From the IMG/VR virus record IMGVR_UViG_3300036719_004377, positions 1 through 26,026 of that record: 26,026 bases of DNA; one strand, written 5' to 3'. Shown piece by piece: positions 2,343 through 26,012 of this stretch (positions are counted from its first letter, which is position 1; each line of letters starts with the position of its first letter). The notes below the pieces were generated by a model. The model saw nothing but the letters and a program-made list of their open reading frames with translations. It did no database searches and was not told where the DNA came from. The translations under genes were made by a program, and so were the position numbers. Source of the DNA: a virus.

Positions 2343-2554
2343 TGAAAAAATCAATTTATGTCATTCAATCGGACAAAGGTTTCCTTTGCGACGTTGAAAA
2401 ATACACAAACGACATTCACAAAGCTGCTGTATTTGTAGATTACGATGTAGCAGTTAAGAAGCTATGTGCAGTTAGTGGTGTACTAACTACCGAATGTACA
2501 GTAACAACCTCGGCTATCGACTTTCCGCGACTCTATCCAATTTCAAAACAATGA
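2342..2554 (+). CDS. Small hypothetical protein, 70 aa
   Basis: This ORF is joined to its neighbours on both sides. Its ATG overlaps the upstream TGA by 1 nt, and its own TGA overlaps the downstream ATG (ATGA at 2551-2554). The protein starts MKKSIYVIQSDKGFLCDVEK, with a beta-hairpin-like opening, then an alpha/beta segment (HKAAVFVDYDVAVKKL). The pattern 'YVI....GF...V.....D...A..F..Y..A..K' resembles small phage proteins of unknown function. It may be a structural adaptor, but nothing in the sequence fixes a role. The double overlap is the best evidence that it is translated. Confidence 0.75.
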   Translation: MKKSIYVIQSDKGFLCDVEKYTNDIHKAAVFVDYDVAVKKLCAVSGVLTTECTVTTSAIDFPRLYPISKQ

Positions 2555-3741
2555 ACGAAACTCTCTTTATCAAGCTGCAAAACTTCCGATCCGCTCTCAA
2601 TAACTCGGCCCTTGAACGTGAGGAAATTGTTGACGGACTTCTGGCAACTTTGCTAAGCAAACAAAACGCATTCCTTTTGGGAGAACCAGGAACAGGTAAA
2701 TCAGATCTTGTCCGAACATTGTGTTCTGGTATTGAAGGGGCTAACTACTTTGGTTATCTCCTTACTCCCACGACGGATCCATCTGAAGTGTTCGGTCCTG
2801 TAGCAGTAACCAAACTGCTGCAGGATGAATACACAAGGGATGTGGACGGTTATCTTCCTTCTGCGCACATCGCATTTTTGGATGAACTCTTCCGTGGGTC
2901 ATCAGCGATTCTGAATTCGTTGCTGACTCTGCTTAATGAGCGGACGTTTAACAACGGAAAGCAAAACATTAAAACTCCGATTCAATCGATCATTGCTGCT
3001 ACGAACACATGGGCAGATGAAGAATCTCTGCAGGCATTTGCCGACAGATTTTTGTTTCGACCGACGGTTCGCAAACTACGTAAGCCTGCTTCAAAAGCTC
3101 TGCTTGATCAGTGGGCAGCTGGCATTCAAGAAAGACCAGAGGTAGCTTGCTTCTTAAGTTTGGATGAGCTAGCCGAGCTTCAGGCAGCTGCAGCAAACAT
3201 AAATATCTCAGAAGATTTTCTTTCAAAATTCAGTAGTGTGTGGGAAATGCTCGAACAGCGAAGCATCAGCATCTCAGATCGTCGACGCGTACAAATTCTT
3301 AAGTTCCTTAAAGCTTGGGCGATTGTACAGGGCGACGATGAACTAAGCCCAGAACATATGCACAACTCAGTGATTCACATCGTGTATCAATCTGAGGAAG
3401 ACAAAGACGTTATTAAAGCAGTTCTGGAGCAGGAGATTCCCACGGCTGAGCGTGTACTGAACGATGCACGGAGAGCAGCGACAGGAATCATGGCTGAGTA
3501 CAGCGCTGTGCACGCCAGACATCAAGCCAGGGGTTTGGGCGATCTGAATGACATGGTTATCCAGCTTCGTAAGTTTCACAAAGATATGTCTACAGTTCAC
3601 GAGAAAGTGAACGAGGTTTTAGACGGAAACAAATTTAAAATGTCAGTAACCGTTCGAGCGAACGGAGTCAAACTTACACGACAACTTCAAACTCACTGCG
3701 AAACCCTGGCTAAATCAATCAACGACCTTACAACATCATGA
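2551..3741 (+). CDS. RavA/MoxR-type AAA+ ATPase, 396 aa
   Basis: Walker A is GEPGTGKS at residues 44-51, Walker B is IAFLDE at about 107-112, and sensor 1 is IIAATN at about 147-152. The stretch FRGSSAILNSLLTLLNERTF after Walker B is the hallmark of the MoxR clade, and it resembles E. coli RavA more than CobS. The C-terminal approximately 200 residues are helical lid and coiled coil. The start is the ATG at 2551 inside an ATGA overlap; an in-frame ATG at 2494 would run through the upstream gene and is rejected. MoxR ATPases typically work with a VWA protein, and one follows with a 4-nt overlap. The likely role is ATP-driven remodelling or maturation of a protein or metal-loaded client. The client is unknown. 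Confidence 0.9.
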   Translation: MNETLFIKLQNFRSALNNSALEREEIVDGLLATLLSKQNAFLLGEPGTGKSDLVRTLCSGIEGANYFGYLLTPTTDPSEVFGPVAVTKLLQDEYTRDVDGYLPSAHIAFLDELFRGSSAILNSLLTLLNERTFNNGKQNIKTPIQSIIAATNTWADEESLQAFADRFLFRPTVRKLRKPASKALLDQWAAGIQERPEVACFLSLDELAELQAAAANINISEDFLSKFSSVWEMLEQRSISISDRRRVQILKFLKAWAIVQGDDELSPEHMHNSVIHIVYQSEEDKDVIKAVLEQEIPTAERVLNDARRAATGIMAEYSAVHARHQARGLGDLNDMVIQLRKFHKDMSTVHEKVNEVLDGNKFKMSVTVRANGVKLTRQLQTHCETLAKSINDLTTS

Positions 3742-5294
3742 ACTTCTCTCTCGAAACTAAAACCGAACTGATCCACCTTGTAGACAATGCCCCTCTTACT
3801 CTGGCGTGCTCAGCTCTTGCTGATTTTCTCTGGGATGATTTTGTTCGTGAAGCTCGTCCATCAGTAAAGTATCTCATCGAGAAATACAACATTAAACAGC
3901 TTTCACGTTTCGGGAAAGAACTATTTGAGCGCTTGTATAACGCAGACAGTGTTAAATGGTTAGTATCTGAAGAAGACTACGAGAACTATTACAGGAAAGT
4001 ATGTAACGGAGAAAAAACAGATCTGCCTGAGGGATACAAACCTGAGAATGGTTTCTGGTGGGCGATTATGTCTGAGCTCAGCCAAGCTGCAGCGTGGGGA
4101 GAACTTCTTAAAAGAAGTTATGGTTCTCAATTCAACGCAGGTAACAACGCAATCAATATCCTTAACGAGCTGTCTGAATACATTGAACAGCTTATTGAAT
4201 CTCAATCAGTTGACATCGAACTGTTAACTCAAAGCGGTGAAGAACTAGAAAAACTCAGGCAAAAATTCAAAGACGCGATTAAAGCTGGAGATAAAGCCAC
4301 AGCGGCAAAAGCTAGGCAGGATGGCAAGGAGTTAAATCAAAAACTGACTGAAGAAATTCAAAAGGCTCAGCAGTTGGTACAGGCACAAGTAGATAACGTT
4401 GTTGACGGTGCAGTAAAAAGCAATGACGAGATGTCTGAGAACATGAGCAATATGTATGGAGATAACGAAGGCTCGCTTTCGGAAACAACAGATTTAAACG
4501 AGAAGAAAGCTTTAGCTAAAAAGCTGGAGCAAAGTAAGCACTTAAGGGAAATCGCTAAGAAGTTGGGTGCGTTGAAACGCGCTTGGATAATGAGGAAGCG
4601 ACAGAAAAAAATTACAGCATCATACGAATCAATTACTGGAGCTCGTTATGGAAACGATTTAACGAAAGCTTTTCCTAGCGAGATTGCACTAGCGAATACG
4701 CCAGAAGGCAAAGCTCTTTTTGCTCTTAAATACTCGCAAAAGACACTGTTTATTAAGGACTACACCGCCACGGCAAAAGATCTAGCGAAAGGACCTGTGG
4801 TTATGTATGTCGACGTGTCGGGTTCGATGCTGGGAGAATCAGAGCTCTGGAGTAAAGCCGTTATGTTTGTTGTGGCGGAGAAAGCGTTGAAGGAAAAGCG
4901 AAGTGTACACGTTTATTTGTTCGATACAGCTATTAAAAGTGAAACTGTATTGGATTCCGTTAGGAAGAACAACAGTGAACTACTTGATCTAGTGGGACGA
5001 AGAGTCTCCGGCGGAGGTACAGCATTTAATTGTGTCATTTCCCACGCGCTCAACAATGCCGAGCTGGACGATCGTGCTGACATCCTCATGATCACGGATG
5101 GGCATTCAGACGTAAACCCTAAACTACTAAAAAGGTTGGAGGAATTCAAAAACAGTACAGGTACTCAATGGTCCACCATTTGTATTGGAGACTCAATGCC
5201 TTCTGTCTGTAAATCTTTTAGCGACGAAGTGTTCACGGTTGATATCCGCAATCAGAATGAAACGGTCGATGCCCTTTTGAAATGCGTTCGATGA
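3738..5294 (+). CDS. VWA-domain protein, ViaA-like partner of the MoxR ATPase, 518 aa
   Basis: The C-terminal von Willebrand A domain has a complete metal-binding MIDAS: DVSGS with D359/S361/S363, T428 in GGGTAF, and D454 in ITDGH. The first approximately 340 residues are helical. They include a charged coiled coil around residues 155-230 and a basic segment near 275-300 (KRAWIMRKRQKK). Overall length and domain order match E. coli ViaA (about 480 aa), which pairs with RavA. The start overlaps the ATPase stop (ATGA at 3738-3741), implying coupled translation and a stoichiometric complex. No signal peptide or membrane helix is seen, so it is probably cytoplasmic. The pairing is strongly supported; the biological role in a phage is open. 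Confidence 0.88.
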   Translation: MNFSLETKTELIHLVDNAPLTLACSALADFLWDDFVREARPSVKYLIEKYNIKQLSRFGKELFERLYNADSVKWLVSEEDYENYYRKVCNGEKTDLPEGYKPENGFWWAIMSELSQAAAWGELLKRSYGSQFNAGNNAINILNELSEYIEQLIESQSVDIELLTQSGEELEKLRQKFKDAIKAGDKATAAKARQDGKELNQKLTEEIQKAQQLVQAQVDNVVDGAVKSNDEMSENMSNMYGDNEGSLSETTDLNEKKALAKKLEQSKHLREIAKKLGALKRAWIMRKRQKKITASYESITGARYGNDLTKAFPSEIALANTPEGKALFALKYSQKTLFIKDYTATAKDLAKGPVVMYVDVSGSMLGESELWSKAVMFVVAEKALKEKRSVHVYLFDTAIKSETVLDSVRKNNSELLDLVGRRVSGGGTAFNCVISHALNNAELDDRADILMITDGHSDVNPKLLKRLEEFKNSTGTQWSTICIGDSMPSVCKSFSDEVFTVDIRNQNETVDALLKCVR

Positions 5295-9280: not shown

Positions 9281-10129
9281 GTGGCTTCCCGCAGAGTTAG
9301 CGTAAATTTAGCTGGTAGGGCTTTCGGCATAGATTTACCGAGTTTTGAAGCTGAAGATAACTCTGCGGAAACACAGTCGATATTAAGTGACTATTTTCCG
9401 GAACTTAAACTGACGTTTGGTAGTAAGTCTCAGAGAGGAGGTCGTTTAGGTCGTCAAACAGTATCGGTGACACCAGAAATATCATTAAGACAGCGAGAAG
9501 CTGCAGCAGCCGGTTCAGCTGCGCCTATCAGCACAAGTGTGCAACAACCTGCACCCACTCCGGCTCCCACGCCGACGCGGGAAAAACGTATTCCTACGAC
9601 TGAATTTGGTCAAAGTTCCACTTATTTCGGTGGAGAAGACTACTGGCGCAATATCGAACGTGGTGTTACTCCGCAAGAAATTAAAGACTGGGCTCAAAGT
9701 AACCCTCAATTATTTAGGGAACAAAATGTTAAAGGTAACCAAGAAGGTTTATACGAACAAATTATGAGAGGTAATGTTCGCGTTGAGTCAGCATTAACTT
9801 CGCAGCAGTCTGCACCTAAGCCAGCACCAGCTCCTACGCCTACTCCTGCACCAACTCCGACTGCGGCGCCTAAATTCGAGAACCCCCTGCAGACTCAAGA
9901 ATTCAGGTCTGCTTCCACAGCGCCTACAACAAAAGGTCCTATTTCTGCTGCATACGGTATCGATCCAGGTTATTTCGGCGGTGAAGACATTACAGCAGCA
10001 AAAAATCAAGGTTATACAGCACAAGAAATTTTTGATTACATTGATCGAAATCAAAATCTTCTTCGAGAGCAGAATGTAAAAGGAAAAGGAGGTCTCTACG
10101 ACATGTTGAAACAGGAAGCCGGACGGTAA
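9281..10129 (+). CDS. Pro-rich protein with duplicated YFGGED module, 282 aa
   Basis: The start is GTG (no ATG fits). The protein alternates low-complexity Pro/Ala/Thr linkers (APTPAPTP-type at about residues 88-100 and 175-195) with two copies of a module of about 50 residues. Copy 1 (about 115-165) reads YFGGED...GVTPQEIKDW...NPQLFREQNVKG. Copy 2 (about 227-279) reads YFGGED...GYTAQEIFDYI...NQNLLREQNVKG. The modules are small helical units; the linkers resemble spacers in virion or fiber-associated proteins. No signal peptide or membrane helix is seen. The 14-bp palindrome upstream may control it. A structural or scaffold-like role is inferred only from repeat architecture. Confidence 0.75.
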   Translation: MASRRVSVNLAGRAFGIDLPSFEAEDNSAETQSILSDYFPELKLTFGSKSQRGGRLGRQTVSVTPEISLRQREAAAAGSAAPISTSVQQPAPTPAPTPTREKRIPTTEFGQSSTYFGGEDYWRNIERGVTPQEIKDWAQSNPQLFREQNVKGNQEGLYEQIMRGNVRVESALTSQQSAPKPAPAPTPTPAPTPTAAPKFENPLQTQEFRSASTAPTTKGPISAAYGIDPGYFGGEDITAAKNQGYTAQEIFDYIDRNQNLLREQNVKGKGGLYDMLKQEAGR

Positions 10130-10137
10130 TTCAACCT

Positions 10138-10707
10138 TTGACAAACGAATATACGCTACTGTTGCAAAAAAACAATAGTAAGCTTTTAATACCTTTAAAA
10201 GCTTTTGATACTAACCACGCGCAAGCGCAGGCAAAAGACATACTTAGAGCACTAAATACAACCGAATTTAATCTTATTTATGAAAAAGCTAAAAGCACTA
10301 GATTATCGATTTTGTTTAAAAAGTTGGCTTTTAATGATTTCTGCAATTCAGAGTGTTTTGAGTGGGATGGAACTCGCACTAACAAATGCCCTTGTGTTTA
10401 TGTTTTTTCAAGTCGGTTGTATATAAAGGATGTGATTTTGCGTTATTTAGACATACCTAAAGAACGGTCCTACGCTAAAAATAGATGTAATAATACACGG
10501 TGTATAAATCCGTATCATTTTGAATATCACACAACCAAGAATTCAAAACTTACTTGCGGTGACACCAAACTTCTCCTAGCCTATCGGGGCCAAGGAACTG
10601 GGGTAAACCAGATCGCCGAGGCCCTAAACGTCCATCGTTCAACAATTTACAGAAAACTAAAAAATGAACGTCTTTCTTCTGGGTCTGCGAATCACAGCAG
10701 AAGCTGA
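10138..10707 (+). CDS. HNH-type zinc-binding protein with C-terminal HTH, 189 aa
   Basis: The frame opens with TTG at 10138, 9 nt after the previous stop; no better start was found. Residues about 115-135 carry the phage HNH signature RCNNTRCINPYHFEY, matching the 'C-x-x-x-x-C-x-N-P-x-H' pattern that holds zinc and the last catalytic His. Other Cys pairs (CNSECFEW, CPC) lie near residues 80-95. The last 45 residues (LLAYRGQGTGVNQIAEAL then STIYRKLKN) form a helix-turn-helix like that of resolvases. This combination suggests a DNA-targeting nuclease such as a homing endonuclease, or a regulator derived from one. Its 3' end overlaps the next gene by 44 nt. Confidence 0.72.
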   Translation: MTNEYTLLLQKNNSKLLIPLKAFDTNHAQAQAKDILRALNTTEFNLIYEKAKSTRLSILFKKLAFNDFCNSECFEWDGTRTNKCPCVYVFSSRLYIKDVILRYLDIPKERSYAKNRCNNTRCINPYHFEYHTTKNSKLTCGDTKLLLAYRGQGTGVNQIAEALNVHRSTIYRKLKNERLSSGSANHSRS

Positions 10708-12171: not shown

Positions 12172-12567
12172 ATGCACAAAAAAATCATTACACTCAGGCA
12201 ACGTGTTGGAAATCTGTGGGTTGCTTTGTTTTATGAACGGATCGGTGAAGATCTTTGGCACGTGGGAATAAATATCAACAAATCCCGCCGAGCACAGTCC
12301 GATTGGTACAAAAAAAGAAAAAATAAGCGTGCCCGAAGAGCAAATCAGATACCCACGGGGCGAAGCCAGCGTGGTCTAGCTGCCCTCTATCGGATGTTTA
12401 AAGCTACGCATACCAAGTTTCCAACGGGTTCAGCGTTTGTATCTATACCGACGTCTAAAAAACGGGAAGCAATTTCCAAATATATAGAACGTTTAGGTTT
12501 CAGTTATTTTCTTCAGGATGGTGTACCTCTTTGGGTGCTAATAACTCCTCAAAGCTCGGAAGAATAA
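12172..12567 (+). CDS. Basic hypothetical protein, 131 aa
   Basis: The ATG at 12172 directly follows the terminator T-tract. The protein is strongly basic (KKRKNKRARR at about residues 46-58). It opens with a beta-rich segment (ITLRQRVGNLWVALFYERI) and has a helix-rich second half (SQRGLAALYRMFKATH). The basic patch suggests contact with nucleic acid, but no enzyme motif is seen. Its last 68 nt overlap the 3' end of the reverse-strand nblA-like gene, so the two genes converge tail to tail. Family unknown. Confidence 0.62.
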   Translation: MHKKIITLRQRVGNLWVALFYERIGEDLWHVGININKSRRAQSDWYKKRKNKRARRANQIPTGRSQRGLAALYRMFKATHTKFPTGSAFVSIPTSKKREAISKYIERLGFSYFLQDGVPLWVLITPQSSEE

Positions 12568-12745
12568 TCTTGTTACTTGCGCACCACGCGGCTAACCGAG
12601 CAAACAAATGACTACGCAAAAGATATTGTTTATGAACACCTTCAAAAATTTGTAAAAGTTCTTCTTTGCTCAGTTTTTTTGCATCCATCATTACTCTCTG
12701 ATGTAAAAATTCTTGTTCTTGTGTCTGCCATTGGAGGTTCAGCAT
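12500..12745 (-). CDS. nblA: NblA-like phycobilisome degradation adaptor, 81 aa
   Basis: The first 55 residues fit the NblA pattern: TQEQEFLHQR (residues 8-17), then LSKEELLQIFEGVHKQYL (25-42) and LRSHLFARLA (43-52). These match the family core 'EQEF...V...S.EEL...........R.HL...L'. NblA is a small helical dimer that links phycobilisome subunits to Clp protease, causing antenna loss under starvation. Phages of phycobilisome-containing cyanobacteria are known to carry it. The length is greater than the usual 55-65 because of a tail of about 27 residues ending KEVHHPEENN. The start is an ATG at 12745. It is the only reverse-strand gene in the left two thirds of the window. The call rests on pattern and is fairly strong. 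Confidence 0.75.
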   Translation of the reverse strand: MLNLQWQTQEQEFLHQRVMMDAKKLSKEELLQIFEGVHKQYLLRSHLFARLAAWCASNKIILPSFEELLAPKEVHHPEENN

Positions 12746-12834
12746 AATCTAAGTCCTTTGTGTGACTGGTGTTAAGACCGTGAACTAAACGAGCCGAAAG
12801 CGGCTAAGCTGGACTGGTTTTAATATCACTGCAG
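12746..12834. promoter_or_regulatory. Divergent control region between nblA-like and methyltransferase-like genes
   Basis: This 89-bp gap separates two diverging starts. It contains a 14-bp direct repeat, GACTGGTGTTAAGA (12764-12777) and GACTGGTTTTAATA (12812-12825), with 12 of 14 positions identical and starts 48 bp apart. Between them lies a tight AGCCG-AAAG-CGGCT hairpin (12792-12805). The repeats could be binding sites for one regulator acting in both directions. No reliable -35/-10 pair was assigned. Confidence 0.5.
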
Positions 12835-13380
12835 ATGTCTATGTTTTACAGCATTCCAAAGGGTGTAACCCACACCTTAATAAAACATTCGTATCTGCAG
12901 GGAAAAATATTTGTCCCATACGACCCATTAAATGTACTCTCAGATCAACTAAAGGGACACAATTATCAGGTAACGACAAACACAGATAAAGAAAATTTAA
13001 CCAACCCTATTTGGTGGGTTGGTGAGCGAGACAAAGGTCACGACTGGGTAGTGGCGTCTACTTTAGGTTCAGAACCGGAGAATGACTACATCCTTGAGTA
13101 CGGATTAGAGATAGCTAAATGTGGGATTGCCGTGTTGGATCGGCTGTCCTTCATCGAACCTGTAGCTAAGCGGAGAGACTTCTTACTAAAAAATAAGCTT
13201 TCAAATATGATCGTTTTGTCCCCACGGCCTAAATTTAGAGCCATCGGCTCCAGCCGAGATTCCGTAACTGCTTGTTGGTTTGTGTTCCAGAAGCCAGAAC
13301 GATGGCATGATGGAACCCAAATAACATACGGAATCAATTGGGATCAAGTCGATCCTCTTCCCTCCCTCCAAGATTTATGA
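12835..13380 (+). CDS. Degenerate DNA-methyltransferase-like protein, 181 aa
   Basis: The second half matches a phage adenine-methyltransferase family: LDRLSFIEPVAKRRDFLL (residues 101-118), IVLSPRPKF (126-134), and DSVTACWFVF (142-151). The expected SAM-binding motif (EPxxGxG type) aligns with VPYDPLN near residue 27. The expected catalytic (D/N)PP(Y/F) aligns with the region STLGSE at about 75-80. Neither is present. The protein therefore looks like the fold without the chemistry. It may be a DNA-binding or substrate-mimic relative, or a decaying gene. It is open and intact, starting at an ATG in a control region and coupled by ATGA to the next gene. The family assignment is from pattern only. 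Confidence 0.6.
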   Translation: MSMFYSIPKGVTHTLIKHSYLQGKIFVPYDPLNVLSDQLKGHNYQVTTNTDKENLTNPIWWVGERDKGHDWVVASTLGSEPENDYILEYGLEIAKCGIAVLDRLSFIEPVAKRRDFLLKNKLSNMIVLSPRPKFRAIGSSRDSVTACWFVFQKPERWHDGTQITYGINWDQVDPLPSLQDL

Positions 13381-18038: not shown

Positions 18039-18794
18039 TCACATCGAGTCGATGAATTGCCAGCCTCTTAACCCGAGGCTGGCATCATTTTTTGATGCCT
18101 CAATTACCGCTTCGATCACAGAAGGAAGCAGGGCTTGCAGACGCTGCCCAATCTGATTCGAAATGTGTTTGTGTTCCTTCTGTGTTCCCGGTGCTGAACG
18201 GACACCAACGAAGAACAACCAGTTCCGCAATGTGCCTTGCATATGAAGACGCGTAGGCACGCACAGCGGAAGAATATTTCGAGCGCACTCCCTAGCCACG
18301 CCGGACTCAACCATGTCGGTGTAGAGCTCGGAGCACAGAGCATACGCGTGGCGGATACGGTCGCGGAACTCTTCTTCGATCAGCTCGTTTTCATACTCGA
18401 TACTGTTCTGCCGATTTTTAGAATCCTGAGCTCGGAGTTCAAACTCCGGAGCCATATTGGAAAGCTCAGCTAAAACATCTAAAGGATTGCAGTATCGCTG
18501 GCTAGCTTCTTGAAACGAGAAAGAACGGTGACGAAGAATCTGCGGGGAGATACTCCGCGAGGTATAAATTTCAAATGAAGCGCACACTTGCTCGAAGACA
18601 CTAACGTGCCCCTCGCGAATGCAGTGTGTTAAAAGTTTTATATACTCTTCTCGGTCAGGATTCTTCGTCGACACACGGGCGTGCTTAGCCAGAACACGCT
18701 CCGGATTGTCCGTAATCCAATCGAGCTTGACTTTGTGAAGTTCCTTAAGAAGCGGCACTGGTGTTCTGGGCTTTCTTACCCGGAACGATAGCAT
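18039..18794 (-). CDS. thyX: Flavin-dependent thymidylate synthase ThyX, 251 aa
   Basis: The ThyX signature RHRSFSFQEASQRY is complete (RHRx7S at residues 88-98). Upstream is the expected KLDWITDNPERVLAKHAR opening. The later ESGVARECARNILP segment and the LFFVGVR stretch are also typical. The enzyme makes dTMP from dUMP using FAD and methylene-tetrahydrofolate, supplying dTTP for phage replication. The start is uncertain. A TTG at 18845 would give 268 aa, the ATG at 18794 gives 251, and a GTG at 18758 gives 239. The ATG is chosen; its first bases overlap the 54-aa micro-ORF. A plus-strand terminator is embedded in the 3' end. Confidence 0.95.
   Translation of the reverse strand: MLSFRVRKPRTPVPLLKELHKVKLDWITDNPERVLAKHARVSTKNPDREEYIKLLTHCIREGHVSVFEQVCASFEIYTSRSISPQILRHRSFSFQEASQRYCNPLDVLAELSNMAPEFELRAQDSKNRQNSIEYENELIEEEFRDRIRHAYALCSELYTDMVESGVARECARNILPLCVPTRLHMQGTLRNWLFFVGVRSAPGTQKEHKHISNQIGQRLQALLPSVIEAVIEASKNDASLGLRGWQFIDSM
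18058..18093 (+). terminator. Terminator for rightward transcription, inside the thyX 3' end
   Basis: TGCCAGCCTC (18058-18067) and GAGGCTGGCA (18075-18084) pair perfectly over 10 bp with a 7-nt loop. A run of six T follows at 18088-18093. On the plus strand this is a strong rho-independent terminator for the replication operon. On the minus strand the same bases encode the ThyX C-terminus (ASLGLRGWQ), so one sequence does both jobs. Confidence 0.85.
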
Positions 18795-18909
18795 CAGTGA
18801 TCCGCTCGACAAGGCCGGGATTCTGCTTCGCCACAGCGCCTGCAAACCTGCCGGAGGTCGGCTTCATCTGAGACGGATCCATGTAGATCTGTGGGCCTGC
18901 GAATCGCAT
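18745..18909 (-). CDS. Micro-ORF before thyX, 54 aa
   Basis: An ATG-started ORF of 55 codons in a different frame from thyX, overlapping its first ~50 nt. The product begins MRFAGPQIYMDPSQMKPTSG and continues RFAGAVAKQN, ending KKAQNTSAAS. It starts only 2 nt after the previous micro-ORF's stop. The Pro/Gly-rich opening and a helical core (VAKQNPGLVERITDAIV) look protein-like. The chain of short gaps supports translation. Function unknown; similar short proteins are common next to phage virion genes. Confidence 0.5.
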   Translation of the reverse strand: MRFAGPQIYMDPSQMKPTSGRFAGAVAKQNPGLVERITDAIVPGKKAQNTSAAS

Positions 18910-22525: not shown

Positions 22526-22909
22526 TTAATCTGCTGGTTTCAAAATATTTAAGCGGCGGAGGTCTTCATAGGCTTTCGCCGCTTCTGTTTTTATAGGGTC
22601 TTCGTAAATCCATTGTAAAACTCTTAACTCTCTTTCTTCGCACCAGAATTCTTGCGATCTCCACCAAGTAAAATAATCGCTATCTGACTTTTGTAGATTG
22701 CAGTCAGCACAGGCTGCTACCAAGTTATTTCTAGTGGTTGGTCCTCCCTTAGCCCTCGGTATCACATGATCTAACGTAGAGGGATCTTTCCGATCACAGT
22801 ACGCACAACGATGTTCCCAAGCTTCAAAAATATCTTTTCTAAATCTTTTTCTGGCTGAACTTCTCTGTAAACAGTTAAGTTCAAACAGTAATTGCTGTTC
22901 GTCGCTCAC
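22526..22909 (-). CDS. HNH endonuclease, 127 aa
   Basis: A compact HNH domain: zinc pair CAYC (C35, C38), LDHVIPRAKGG (H48), NNLVAACADC (N62, C67, C70), then NLQKSD. This is the HNH pattern of mobile endonucleases and of McrA-like restriction nucleases. The start is GTG at 22909, inside speD, giving a 29-nt overlap. The N-terminus (RSSARKRFRKDIFEAWEHR) is basic and may contact DNA. It could be a homing nuclease that inserted next to speD. All zinc and metal ligands look intact. Confidence 0.9.
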   Translation of the reverse strand: MSDEQQLLFELNCLQRSSARKRFRKDIFEAWEHRCAYCDRKDPSTLDHVIPRAKGGPTTRNNLVAACADCNLQKSDSDYFTWWRSQEFWCEERELRVLQWIYEDPIKTEAAKAYEDLRRLNILKPAD

Positions 22910-23315
22910 AAATTGTGTGCGGCTTTGTATCCATTCTATCTAAACAAGTTGTAGCAACAGGTTTAATAAAATCTGGAATGTAACGATCCAGCGTAATGAT
23001 GTGCTGGCTGCGAGCTTCGAAGGCTTCAGCTAAAAAAGCACAGGCTTGTTCCGGATCTGTGGTTTCCCCGCACGTAAACACATCCACAGCGGCGTAACCG
23101 GATTCAGGCCAGGAATGAATACTGATATGACTTTCGGCTAATAATGCAAATCCTGTAACACCTTGAACAGGAAACGAGTGCACAGTTACGTCTAACAGAG
23201 TTGCGGATGCAACGAGCGAAGCTTGCGTAAGAGCCTGTTTAACAAAATCTGCATCGTTAAGTTTTTCAGGATTTGCGTTATAAAGCTCCTGAACGCAGTG
23301 CTTTCCCGACAACAA
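22881..23315 (-). CDS. speD: S-adenosylmethionine decarboxylase SpeD, 144 aa
   Basis: The autocatalytic site LLAESHISIHSWPE is present: cleavage between E61 and S62 creates the pyruvoyl group, H63 and H67 follow, and C82 in FTCG is the conserved cysteine. The opening GKHCVQELYNANPEKL matches bacterial SpeD. The enzyme makes decarboxylated AdoMet for spermidine synthesis, and speD is a known metabolic gene of cyanophages. The start is TTG at 23315 because a TGA lies upstream in frame and no ATG fits. Length is typical, apart from a C-terminal tail of about 20 residues (after PVATTCLDRMD). It overlaps the HNH gene. Confidence 0.93.
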   Translation of the reverse strand: MLSGKHCVQELYNANPEKLNDADFVKQALTQASLVASATLLDVTVHSFPVQGVTGFALLAESHISIHSWPESGYAAVDVFTCGETTDPEQACAFLAEAFEARSQHIITLDRYIPDFIKPVATTCLDRMDTKPHTICERRTAITV

Positions 23316-23487: not shown

Positions 23488-24336
23488 GTGACAACACTTC
23501 AAGAAGCGTGGACACAGTTTATGAATGAGAAAAAAGTTGCAATCTACCCCACGAGCTTCGCGGCAGACTATGTTCAGGCAACTAAATGGTTAAATCGTTG
23601 CCCGATAACGGATTTGGCCGAAGGACGGCAAGTCATCACCTGGGTTTTAAATCAGCGACCAATTAAGGCGAGTAGGCGAGTCACAATGTACGTAAAAAGT
23701 CTATATAGATGGGCGTCTAGCGAAGACGTAGGATTACTTTCAAAAAATCCTGTTCAGAGTTTTAAATTACCAAAGCCTCCTCAAGAGGATGAAGAAATTA
23801 TTGTGATCCCTAAAAGGGAAACGCAGATCGTATTACAAGCTTTAGGTAGCAGAAGAACAAAATACGACTGGTACGCTTACGCCGACTTCATGCTGCAAAC
23901 CGCAATGCGGACGGGAGAGGTAAGAGCACTTAAGTGGGAAGATATTAAAGAAGATAAAATTTTGGTTCACACGAACTACACGCTCACGCACGGTTTAAAA
24001 ATGTCTACGAAGACAAATAAAAAACGGTGGGTGCCTTTAAATGAAAGATGCCAAGAAATCTTAAACAAGCAAGATAAAACAGAGGATTTTATATTTCCCT
24101 ATAACCGATACGCTTTTCAAAGCTATTTTTACGACCGAATGAAAGAACTGCACGCACAAGATTTAATCGAGCACAGATACAGACCGTACGACTTAAGGCA
24201 CACCGCTATTAGTCGTTGGATTGAAGCAAAAATACCCGTGGCGCAAGCAGCTAAGTGGGCTGGCAACAGCTCAGAAGTTATCTGGAAGCATTATGTAAAT
24301 GTAACGCAGGATTATGATATGCCTGTCTTAACTTAA
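23488..24336 (+). CDS. int: Tyrosine recombinase (integrase), 282 aa
   Basis: The N-terminal core-binding region runs from residue 1 to about 95. The catalytic domain has R141 in TAMRTGEVRALKW, a candidate beta-hairpin Lys near 175 (STKTNKKRWVPL), the box PYDLRHTA with R237, AGNSS (G259, N260), and the nucleophile Y269 in KHYVN. Where most recombinases have His-x-x-Arg this one has Tyr-x-x-Arg (Y234), and the late His/Trp position is Asn. This matches an AGNS-type branch often seen in cyanobacterial integrases. The start is GTG at 23488. It catalyses integration or excision at an att site. Nearby repeats may be arm sites. Confidence 0.93.
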   Translation: MTTLQEAWTQFMNEKKVAIYPTSFAADYVQATKWLNRCPITDLAEGRQVITWVLNQRPIKASRRVTMYVKSLYRWASSEDVGLLSKNPVQSFKLPKPPQEDEEIIVIPKRETQIVLQALGSRRTKYDWYAYADFMLQTAMRTGEVRALKWEDIKEDKILVHTNYTLTHGLKMSTKTNKKRWVPLNERCQEILNKQDKTEDFIFPYNRYAFQSYFYDRMKELHAQDLIEHRYRPYDLRHTAISRWIEAKIPVAQAAKWAGNSSEVIWKHYVNVTQDYDMPVLT

Positions 24337-25170: not shown

Positions 25171-25251
25171 CTACGAGGTTTCATTTTGTTCTTGAGCGTA
25201 CTCCTCTTGTTTATCTAAACGCCGCTCCAGCTCTTCAATGCGGGAAATCAA
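25171..25251 (-). CDS. Short coiled-coil ORF, or frameshifted tail of the 254-aa protein, 26 aa
   Basis: A TTG at 25251 overlaps the 254-aa gene's TGA as TTGA. The product is ISRIEELERRLDKQEE then YAQEQNETS, a clean coiled coil. The same frame is also open upstream inside the larger gene for about 28 codons, reading NYLSLPGGRISVW, CAGAWETS and LLITNL. Those residues look more like a natural protein end than the gene's own last 30 (EITCRSQGDESVFG...). So this is either a small coupled ORF or the true end of the larger protein, reached by a frameshift or hidden by an indel. Confidence 0.4.
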   Translation of the reverse strand: MISRIEELERRLDKQEEYAQEQNETS

Positions 25252-26012
25252 ATTCGTGATGAGCAGGGAAGTTTCCCACGCTCCGGCGCACCAAACACTG
25301 ATTCGTCCCCCTGGGAGCGACAGGTAATTTCTTCTGTTTCTACTTCTTTTTCATTAGGTGTTTTCCAAAAATAATCGTCACACTCGCCTAGGCGTCCCCA
25401 TTTAGGTGCACTTTCGACATCGAAGTATCTAGTTGAAACCTTAAAGTCAGGCGTCTTTAGATCATTGTTTGTCAATGATGGGTCGATCATTCGGCAACGA
25501 TTGTTAGGATAAGCCCCAATTTGGCCATTGTCCAAAGCCACAATGTTGTGCGATTTGTGCTCATCTGGAAACTCCGAGAAATAAAAGTCAGGCTCGTTAC
25601 GATGAGGATGGTAATTGTCAACTGTGAATAAGTATGTGCCCTGCATTACACCTTGAGATCTTGTCAGGACCTCAAAACGCATATTAAAAATAAGATTCTT
25701 TTCTACCACCGTAAGACCATGATCAAAGCCGTTCCAAAACTGGAGATCGGTTAGTTCCAAATCAGGTGTGGGCGGAACGGGTTCATTTGGATGGTCAGAG
25801 TCCCACGATAAAAAGGCACTGATAGGCAGTTTGTCGTATAAAGCGCCGTACTCAGTCAGGTACGTTTCAAAATACAAAGCCCTTCCAGTAAGAGATTTGC
25901 ATGTCACCCAATAACCAGGCGTATATTCTCCATGTCCTTTTTGGAGGTCATACAAATATTCTTTTCTGACCCACACTTTTACAGGTGGTACGTTAGCAAC
26001 TAGAGTAGTCAT
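25248..26012 (-). CDS. Conserved-type phage hypothetical protein, 254 aa
   Basis: The ATG at 26012 opens MTTLVANVPPVKVWVRKEYLY. The protein is beta-rich and aromatic: GEYTPGYWVTCKSL, RALYFETYLTEYGALYDKLP, FNMRFEVLTRSQ, YLFTVDNYHPH, and HNIVALDNGQIGAYPNNRCR. A late DFKVSTRYFDVES segment precedes a Glu-rich end. It has no signal peptide, membrane segment or clear catalytic motif. The sequence style resembles proteins seen widely in cyanobacterial phages, but no function is known to me. Its C-terminal 30 residues may be out of frame (see 25171-25251). The last gene in the window on this strand. Confidence 0.72.
   Translation of the reverse strand: MTTLVANVPPVKVWVRKEYLYDLQKGHGEYTPGYWVTCKSLTGRALYFETYLTEYGALYDKLPISAFLSWDSDHPNEPVPPTPDLELTDLQFWNGFDHGLTVVEKNLIFNMRFEVLTRSQGVMQGTYLFTVDNYHPHRNEPDFYFSEFPDEHKSHNIVALDNGQIGAYPNNRCRMIDPSLTNNDLKTPDFKVSTRYFDVESAPKWGRLGECDDYFWKTPNEKEVETEEITCRSQGDESVFGAPERGKLPCSSRI

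Follow-up and report, generated by a model that had tools for sequence, protein, structure and literature searches.

On the strand opposite its replication genes, the 26,026-nucleotide stretch of viral DNA analysed here (IMG/VR record IMGVR_UViG_3300036719_004377; hereafter the window) carries a small open reading frame (ORF) whose product had been likened, in a sequence-only reading, to NblA, the adaptor that brings phycobilisome proteins to a ClpC-dependent protease (PMC7966870). The locus raises the question of whether this ORF is a gene at all, whether its product is truly related to NblA and what such a protein would do in the infected cell.

A minus-strand gene facing the replication block

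The ORF occupies positions 12500-12745 of the minus strand. It starts with an ATG at 12745, stops at 12500 and spans 81 codons; coordinates, start and length (81 aa) are all as first proposed. The sequence AAAGGA at 12754-12759 (minus strand), 9-14 bases upstream of the start, constitutes a plausible ribosome-binding site. Scanning viral contigs for relatives, here called family a, yielded 29 loci when one sequence served as query and 98 when an alignment did. Comparison of the window copy with its closest divergent relatives, L007 and L009, gave a dN/dS ratio of about 0.05 in the part of the gene that lies outside the overlap with a convergent ORF (the L045 row, misregistered by one codon, was left out). 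The ORF is a genuine gene selected as a protein.

The location of the gene is equally constant. In all of the 39 longer loci compared, it occupies the same slot, between ORFs corresponding to 12835-13380 and to 12172/11325, and faces the polymerase/primase/nuclease block on the opposite strand, as the sequence-only reading had it for the window. The same reading was also right in describing it as the only minus-strand gene in the left two thirds of the window, since all other likely genes between 509 and 17989 lie on the plus strand; from ThyX (18039) onward, genes are mostly on the minus strand. The divergent neighbour (12835-13380, plus strand, 181 aa) adjoins the nblA-like gene in 38 of the 39 loci, the sequence of the remaining one beginning at the nblA-like gene itself. 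The convergent neighbour (12172-12567, plus strand, 131 aa) overlaps the 3′ end of the gene by 68 bp. This overlap might suggest that the minus-strand ORF is no gene but an antisense shadow of the convergent one, an idea to which we attach next to no credence: 178 of the 246 bp lie outside the overlap, and the low dN/dS ratio was measured in that part. Furthermore, since six of the 39 loci keep the nblA-like gene while the convergent ORF is undetected, the former cannot be a by-product of the latter. Conservation outside the 68-bp overlap had already refuted this reading.

The nblA-like gene and the 12835-13380 gene share a divergent intergenic spacer of 89 bp (12746-12834), the putative control region of the sequence-only reading, whose length ranges roughly from 86 to 105 bp across distant relatives. 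The best-conserved box of the spacer, GCTAAGCT, is an 8-bp element of the form TANNNT at 12803-12810 (plus strand). Its position is kept across relatives; in most of the distant ones the distance to the nblA start is about 57-62 bp and that to the start of the plus-strand gene about 30 bp. Judging from its form and placement, the box is likely the -10 box of the plus-strand gene, a reading that fits at least as readily as that of an nblA element, and it possibly serves a shared regulation of both genes. A sigma-70 scan produced one weak site, no more than shuffled sequences give, and identified no nblA promoter.

A pattern scan of 84,980 prokaryote genomes, which reaches moderately close relatives only, returned one family-a relative, L081. 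It sits on a 3.8-kb contig (JAURMN010000017.1) binned into a Balneolales metagenome-assembled genome and is probably a stray phage contig. This being the single match, the scan revealed neither a cellular donor nor a prophage for family a.

Similarity to NblA

Searched alone, the window protein has no NblA match in Pfam, PHROG, NCBIfam or the PDB, nor in a tblastn search of phage records; likewise, the NblA cores of S. elongatus and Anabaena have no tblastn matches in phage records. The picture changes when relatives are included. The Pfam NblA model (PF04485) is matched by 20 of 34 non-redundant family-a members (best E-value 1.3e-5), one of which, L073, located in the same slot and sharing about 52% identity with the window copy, scores 26.0 bits, above the curated cut-off of 25. 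The absence of an NblA hit in a sensitive profile search, which the sequence-only reading had named as grounds for abandoning the idea, is thus what the single sequence gives if taken literally, but not what the family gives.

Profile comparisons point the same way. The best PDB match of the family-a profile is S. elongatus NblA (3cs5), with an E-value of 0.032 that is marginal alone; residues 8-52 fall on residues 11-55 of 3cs5 without a gap. When family a was aligned by hhalign to 14 NblA sequences, residues 7-53 paired with NblA residues 7-53 over 47 gapless columns (E 1.4e-4 at a probability of 53%; hhalign probabilities overall were only 53-59%). With gap-trimmed alignments the score was 26.5, against 10.6 ± 2.2 (maximum 16.9) for 200 column shuffles, none of which reached the family-a value, and 12.6 for reversed NblA. 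Circular rotations of NblA were rejected as a null model: they are unfair because local matches are kept. An NblA profile run over the 9,738 ORFs of the collected loci gave 46 matches at E < 0.5, every one of them to an NblA, to family a, to the second family described below (family b) or to a protein of Synechococcus phage S-EIV1. Genuine NblAs are themselves remote from each other, 3cs5 matching 1ojh with an E-value of 0.017 and 2qdo with 0.15.

The region of similarity (12590-12724, minus strand) corresponds to residues 8-52, which align without gaps to NblA residues 8-52 in the Anabaena numbering. The window copy shares E10, Q11, F13, S26, Q40, R44 and L51 with NblA and has F48 in place of Y48. 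E10, Q11 and F13 do not vary in either family a or NblA, Q40 is invariant in family a, and most sequences of both groups have an aromatic residue at position 48. L51 is 97% conserved in family a, whereas K53 of NblA is not conserved; according to Bienert et al. (2006), L51 and K53 are reportedly C-terminal residues that contact phycobiliproteins. The boundaries originally assigned to the NblA core, residues 8-52, are therefore right, although the core can be demonstrated only through the family and not from the window copy alone. Taken together, these comparisons give good support to the view that the 12500-12745 product is a distant NblA homologue.

AlphaFold2, supplied with 34 sequences, predicts helices at residues 9-24 and 27-57 and a short helix at 65-68 (pLDDT 77 on average and about 79-92 in the core blocks). 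The first two form a two-helix hairpin, a helix-loop-helix monomer of the kind expected of an NblA. Foldseek comparison of two models with the PDB gave no meaningful match, a result of little weight because the protein has two helices.

The core is followed by a C-terminal tail (residues 53-81; 12503-12589, minus strand) in which W54, C55, P63 and L68 are invariant and L62, H76 and P77 nearly so. An extra tail of about 27 residues had been proposed. The tail is present and is a hallmark of the family: 29 residues follow the core and, since solved NblA chains measure 54-65 aa, the net excess is about 16-27 residues.

Phage lineage and a second NblA-like gene

The relatives of the window phage include an 81.8-kb contig with the same gene order (G013), which shares 27 of its 124 ORFs with S-EIV1. 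The terminases are 52% identical and the likely capsid proteins 68%, the latter protein matching S-EIV1 only among 50,697 phage records. Genes of the window itself shared with S-EIV1, at 23-53% identity, include those for polymerase, primase, a PDDEXK nuclease, ThyX, lysozyme, an HNH protein and SpeD. By these shared genes, the phages are distant relatives of S-EIV1, and the host is for the same reason likely to be a cyanobacterium of Synechococcus type. This lends indirect support to the phycobilisome-containing host implied by the sequence-only reading. The photosynthesis genes psbA and psbD, sought as host markers, are absent from 18 related records; Ma-LMM01 likewise carries nblA without the photosynthesis genes that marine cyanophages have (PMC4103541).

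Several other genes of the window deserve mention. The protein encoded at 25248-26012 (minus strand) shows 82% identity over 239 aa with one of S-EIV1 (region annotated PurM); the gap from the 23-53% seen elsewhere would reflect either a recent exchange or unusual constraint. Host-like metabolic genes with S-EIV1 relatives are those for SpeD (S-adenosylmethionine decarboxylase; 22881-23315, minus strand) and ThyX (18039-18845, minus strand). A tyrosine recombinase is encoded at 23488-24336 (plus strand; Pfam Phage_integrase, 1e-16) which suggests a possibly temperate phage; S. elongatus UTEX 3055 is reported to carry an S-EIV1-like prophage (PMC9239245). A pair of genes for a MoxR-type AAA ATPase and a vWA protein (2494-5294, plus strand; bpMoxR 3.9e-56, VWA_CoxE 9.3e-08) is conserved ahead of the polymerase in related loci. 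Finally, around ORF 10138-10707, whose product has a C-terminal resolvase-type HTH, identity to L004, L006, L007 and L009 falls to about 63-72% between blocks of 90-99%, a pattern that marks positions about 10000-10500 (plus strand) as a local replacement hotspot.

Scanning whole records with the Pfam NblA model uncovered a second NblA-like gene, family b, in 53 viral contigs (examples are L088:4925-5173 and L115:5001-5249). The model is matched by 20 of 25 family-b members, and the family-b profile aligns to NblA with an E-value of 2e-5 and a probability of 77%. Family b bears no discernible resemblance to family a (hhalign E 0.09); it is characterised by an invariant CGLTLEDEF.LTR and by an acidic tail end with a GI.VDTN..LFDD motif. 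Exactly one member of each family occurs in all eight searched contigs of 75 kb or more (G002, G004, G006, G013, G015, G025, G026 and G027), which are near-complete relatives; 21-31 kb separate the two genes on the assumption that the contigs are circular. In G013, family b directly precedes a protein whose N-terminus, judged by eye, is lysozyme-like. The 26-kb window contains no family-b partner; at 21-31 kb upstream on the nblA strand, that of the window gene would fall beyond the window end.

S-EIV1 itself, an isolated cyanophage, encodes an NblA-like protein. AHV82245.1, annotated as a hypothetical protein and located beside the lysozyme gene (L096:7903-8223, corresponding to 73902-74222 of KJ410740.1), matches our local NblA profile with an E-value of 7.7e-5 and Pfam NblA with 0.014. 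It has an acidic tail and, unlike family a, lies away from the replication block; it matches neither family a nor family b. A 2017 survey credited the S-EIV1 group with only hli and ptoX, and no nblA (PMC5332604). Other viral contigs hold one more group of NblA-like phage genes (ELTVEQEFQLRKL...; NCBIfam NblA, 0.0065), at L109:2989-3234 and L112:2983-3204.

Probable role and relation to known NblA proteins

We consider it probable that the window gene belongs to a divergent NblA subfamily, specific to phages, that works as a ClpC adaptor in phycobilisome degradation and may be one member of a pair. By homology, antenna degradation is the most likely function of the window protein. During infection, the protein would form the four-helix bundle of an NblA dimer, either by itself or together with family b. 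The C-terminal part of helix 2 would bind phycobiliproteins and the N-terminal motif ClpC, so as to deliver phycobilisome subunits to the Clp protease; the ensuing loss of antenna would lower light capture and release amino acids. In known NblAs, conserved motifs near the N terminus are reported to bind ClpC and those near the C terminus phycobiliproteins (PMC4103541). Expression of other phage nblA genes in cyanobacteria leads to a loss of phycobilins (PMC9602691). As for the conserved tail, it probably adjusts the choice of partner or substrate, which is a guess.

The co-occurrence of the two families allows a more specific, and more tentative, proposal: the S-EIV1-related lineage quite possibly encodes a two-protein NblA system, in which the partners form an obligate heterodimer or serve different antenna targets or times, with the tails setting substrate choice. 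The two adaptors, mutually unrecognisable, would be encoded one beside the replication genes and the other beside a lysozyme-like gene. Synechocystis NblA1 and NblA2 reportedly form a heterodimer (Baier et al. 2014). Families a and b could do likewise or act separately. The Synechocystis pair resembles the phage pair in that one genome holds two NblA-type proteins; the phage proteins are far more divergent and their genes unlinked.

Two other explanations were weighed against antenna degradation. Strong divergence from canonical NblA, the extra conserved tail and the loss of K53 would also fit a reuse of the NblA fold, either in a ClpC adaptor or blocker that has given up phycobilisomes and delivers another host protein to the Clp protease, or in a protein whose inactive dimers with host NblA protect the antenna during infection; the presence of two NblA-like proteins in these genomes would allow such a division of roles. 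We regard this as rather unlikely, as the N-terminal E10, Q11 and F13 are retained together with L51, and those phage NblAs that have been tested break down phycobilisomes (PMC9602691). Less probable still is a chance resemblance to NblA in a small helical phage protein, perhaps one derived from the N-terminal domain of a Tn3-type transposase. DUF4158 is matched by 14 of the 34 family-a members (best 0.0036), and the window copy matches an NCBIfam Tn3 transposase model with an E-value of 0.032. Yet the best DUF4158 score, 17.6 bits, stays below the curated cut-off of 27.4 and covers about 46 of 165 positions, limited to part of helix 2 and the tail, whereas the NblA matches span nearly the whole model, with one member above its cut-off and a score reached by no column shuffle. 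Moreover, searching plasmids with the family-a consensus retrieved no transposase.

Family a shares with cyanobacterial NblA (PF04485; 1OJH, 2Q8V, 2QDO, 3CS5) a core of about 45 residues that aligns without gaps and with identical numbering, as well as E10, Q11, F13, an aromatic residue at 48, L51 and the predicted two-helix hairpin. It differs in its overall identity of about 20%, its length (81 aa, the solved chains having 54-65), its restriction to phages, and the invariant W6, H15 and W54-C55 and conserved LP..ELL tail, not seen in the cyanobacterial proteins. The NblAs of Ma-LMM01, MaMV-DC, PaV-LD and marine cyanophages are likewise products of small nblA-like cyanophage genes, and are recognisable directly or by HHpred as similar to host NblA (PMC4103541, PMC9602691); family a, seen only with a family profile, belongs to another phage lineage, the distinction resting on published descriptions of the former. 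Family b matches NblA independently and occurs in the same genomes, but has its own tail motif and lies 21-31 kb away. Since phage nblA is already known, the kind of system is not new. What appears new, as far as the literature examined shows, is the divergent tail-bearing subfamily, its pairing with family b and the NblA-like protein of S-EIV1; these families may in part coincide with the nblA genes of Nadel et al. 2025. A review citing that work (PMC12892361) puts the reduction of light capture that viral NblA causes in cyanobacteria at up to 5% worldwide. The paired arrangement makes the use of heterodimers by phage NblAs testable and, if the families act as other viral NblAs do, a lineage-wide set of viral NblAs escapes single-sequence searches: family a was found in 98 viral contigs and family b in 53, against 13 retrieved with canonical NblA patterns, a rough comparison given that the patterns differ.
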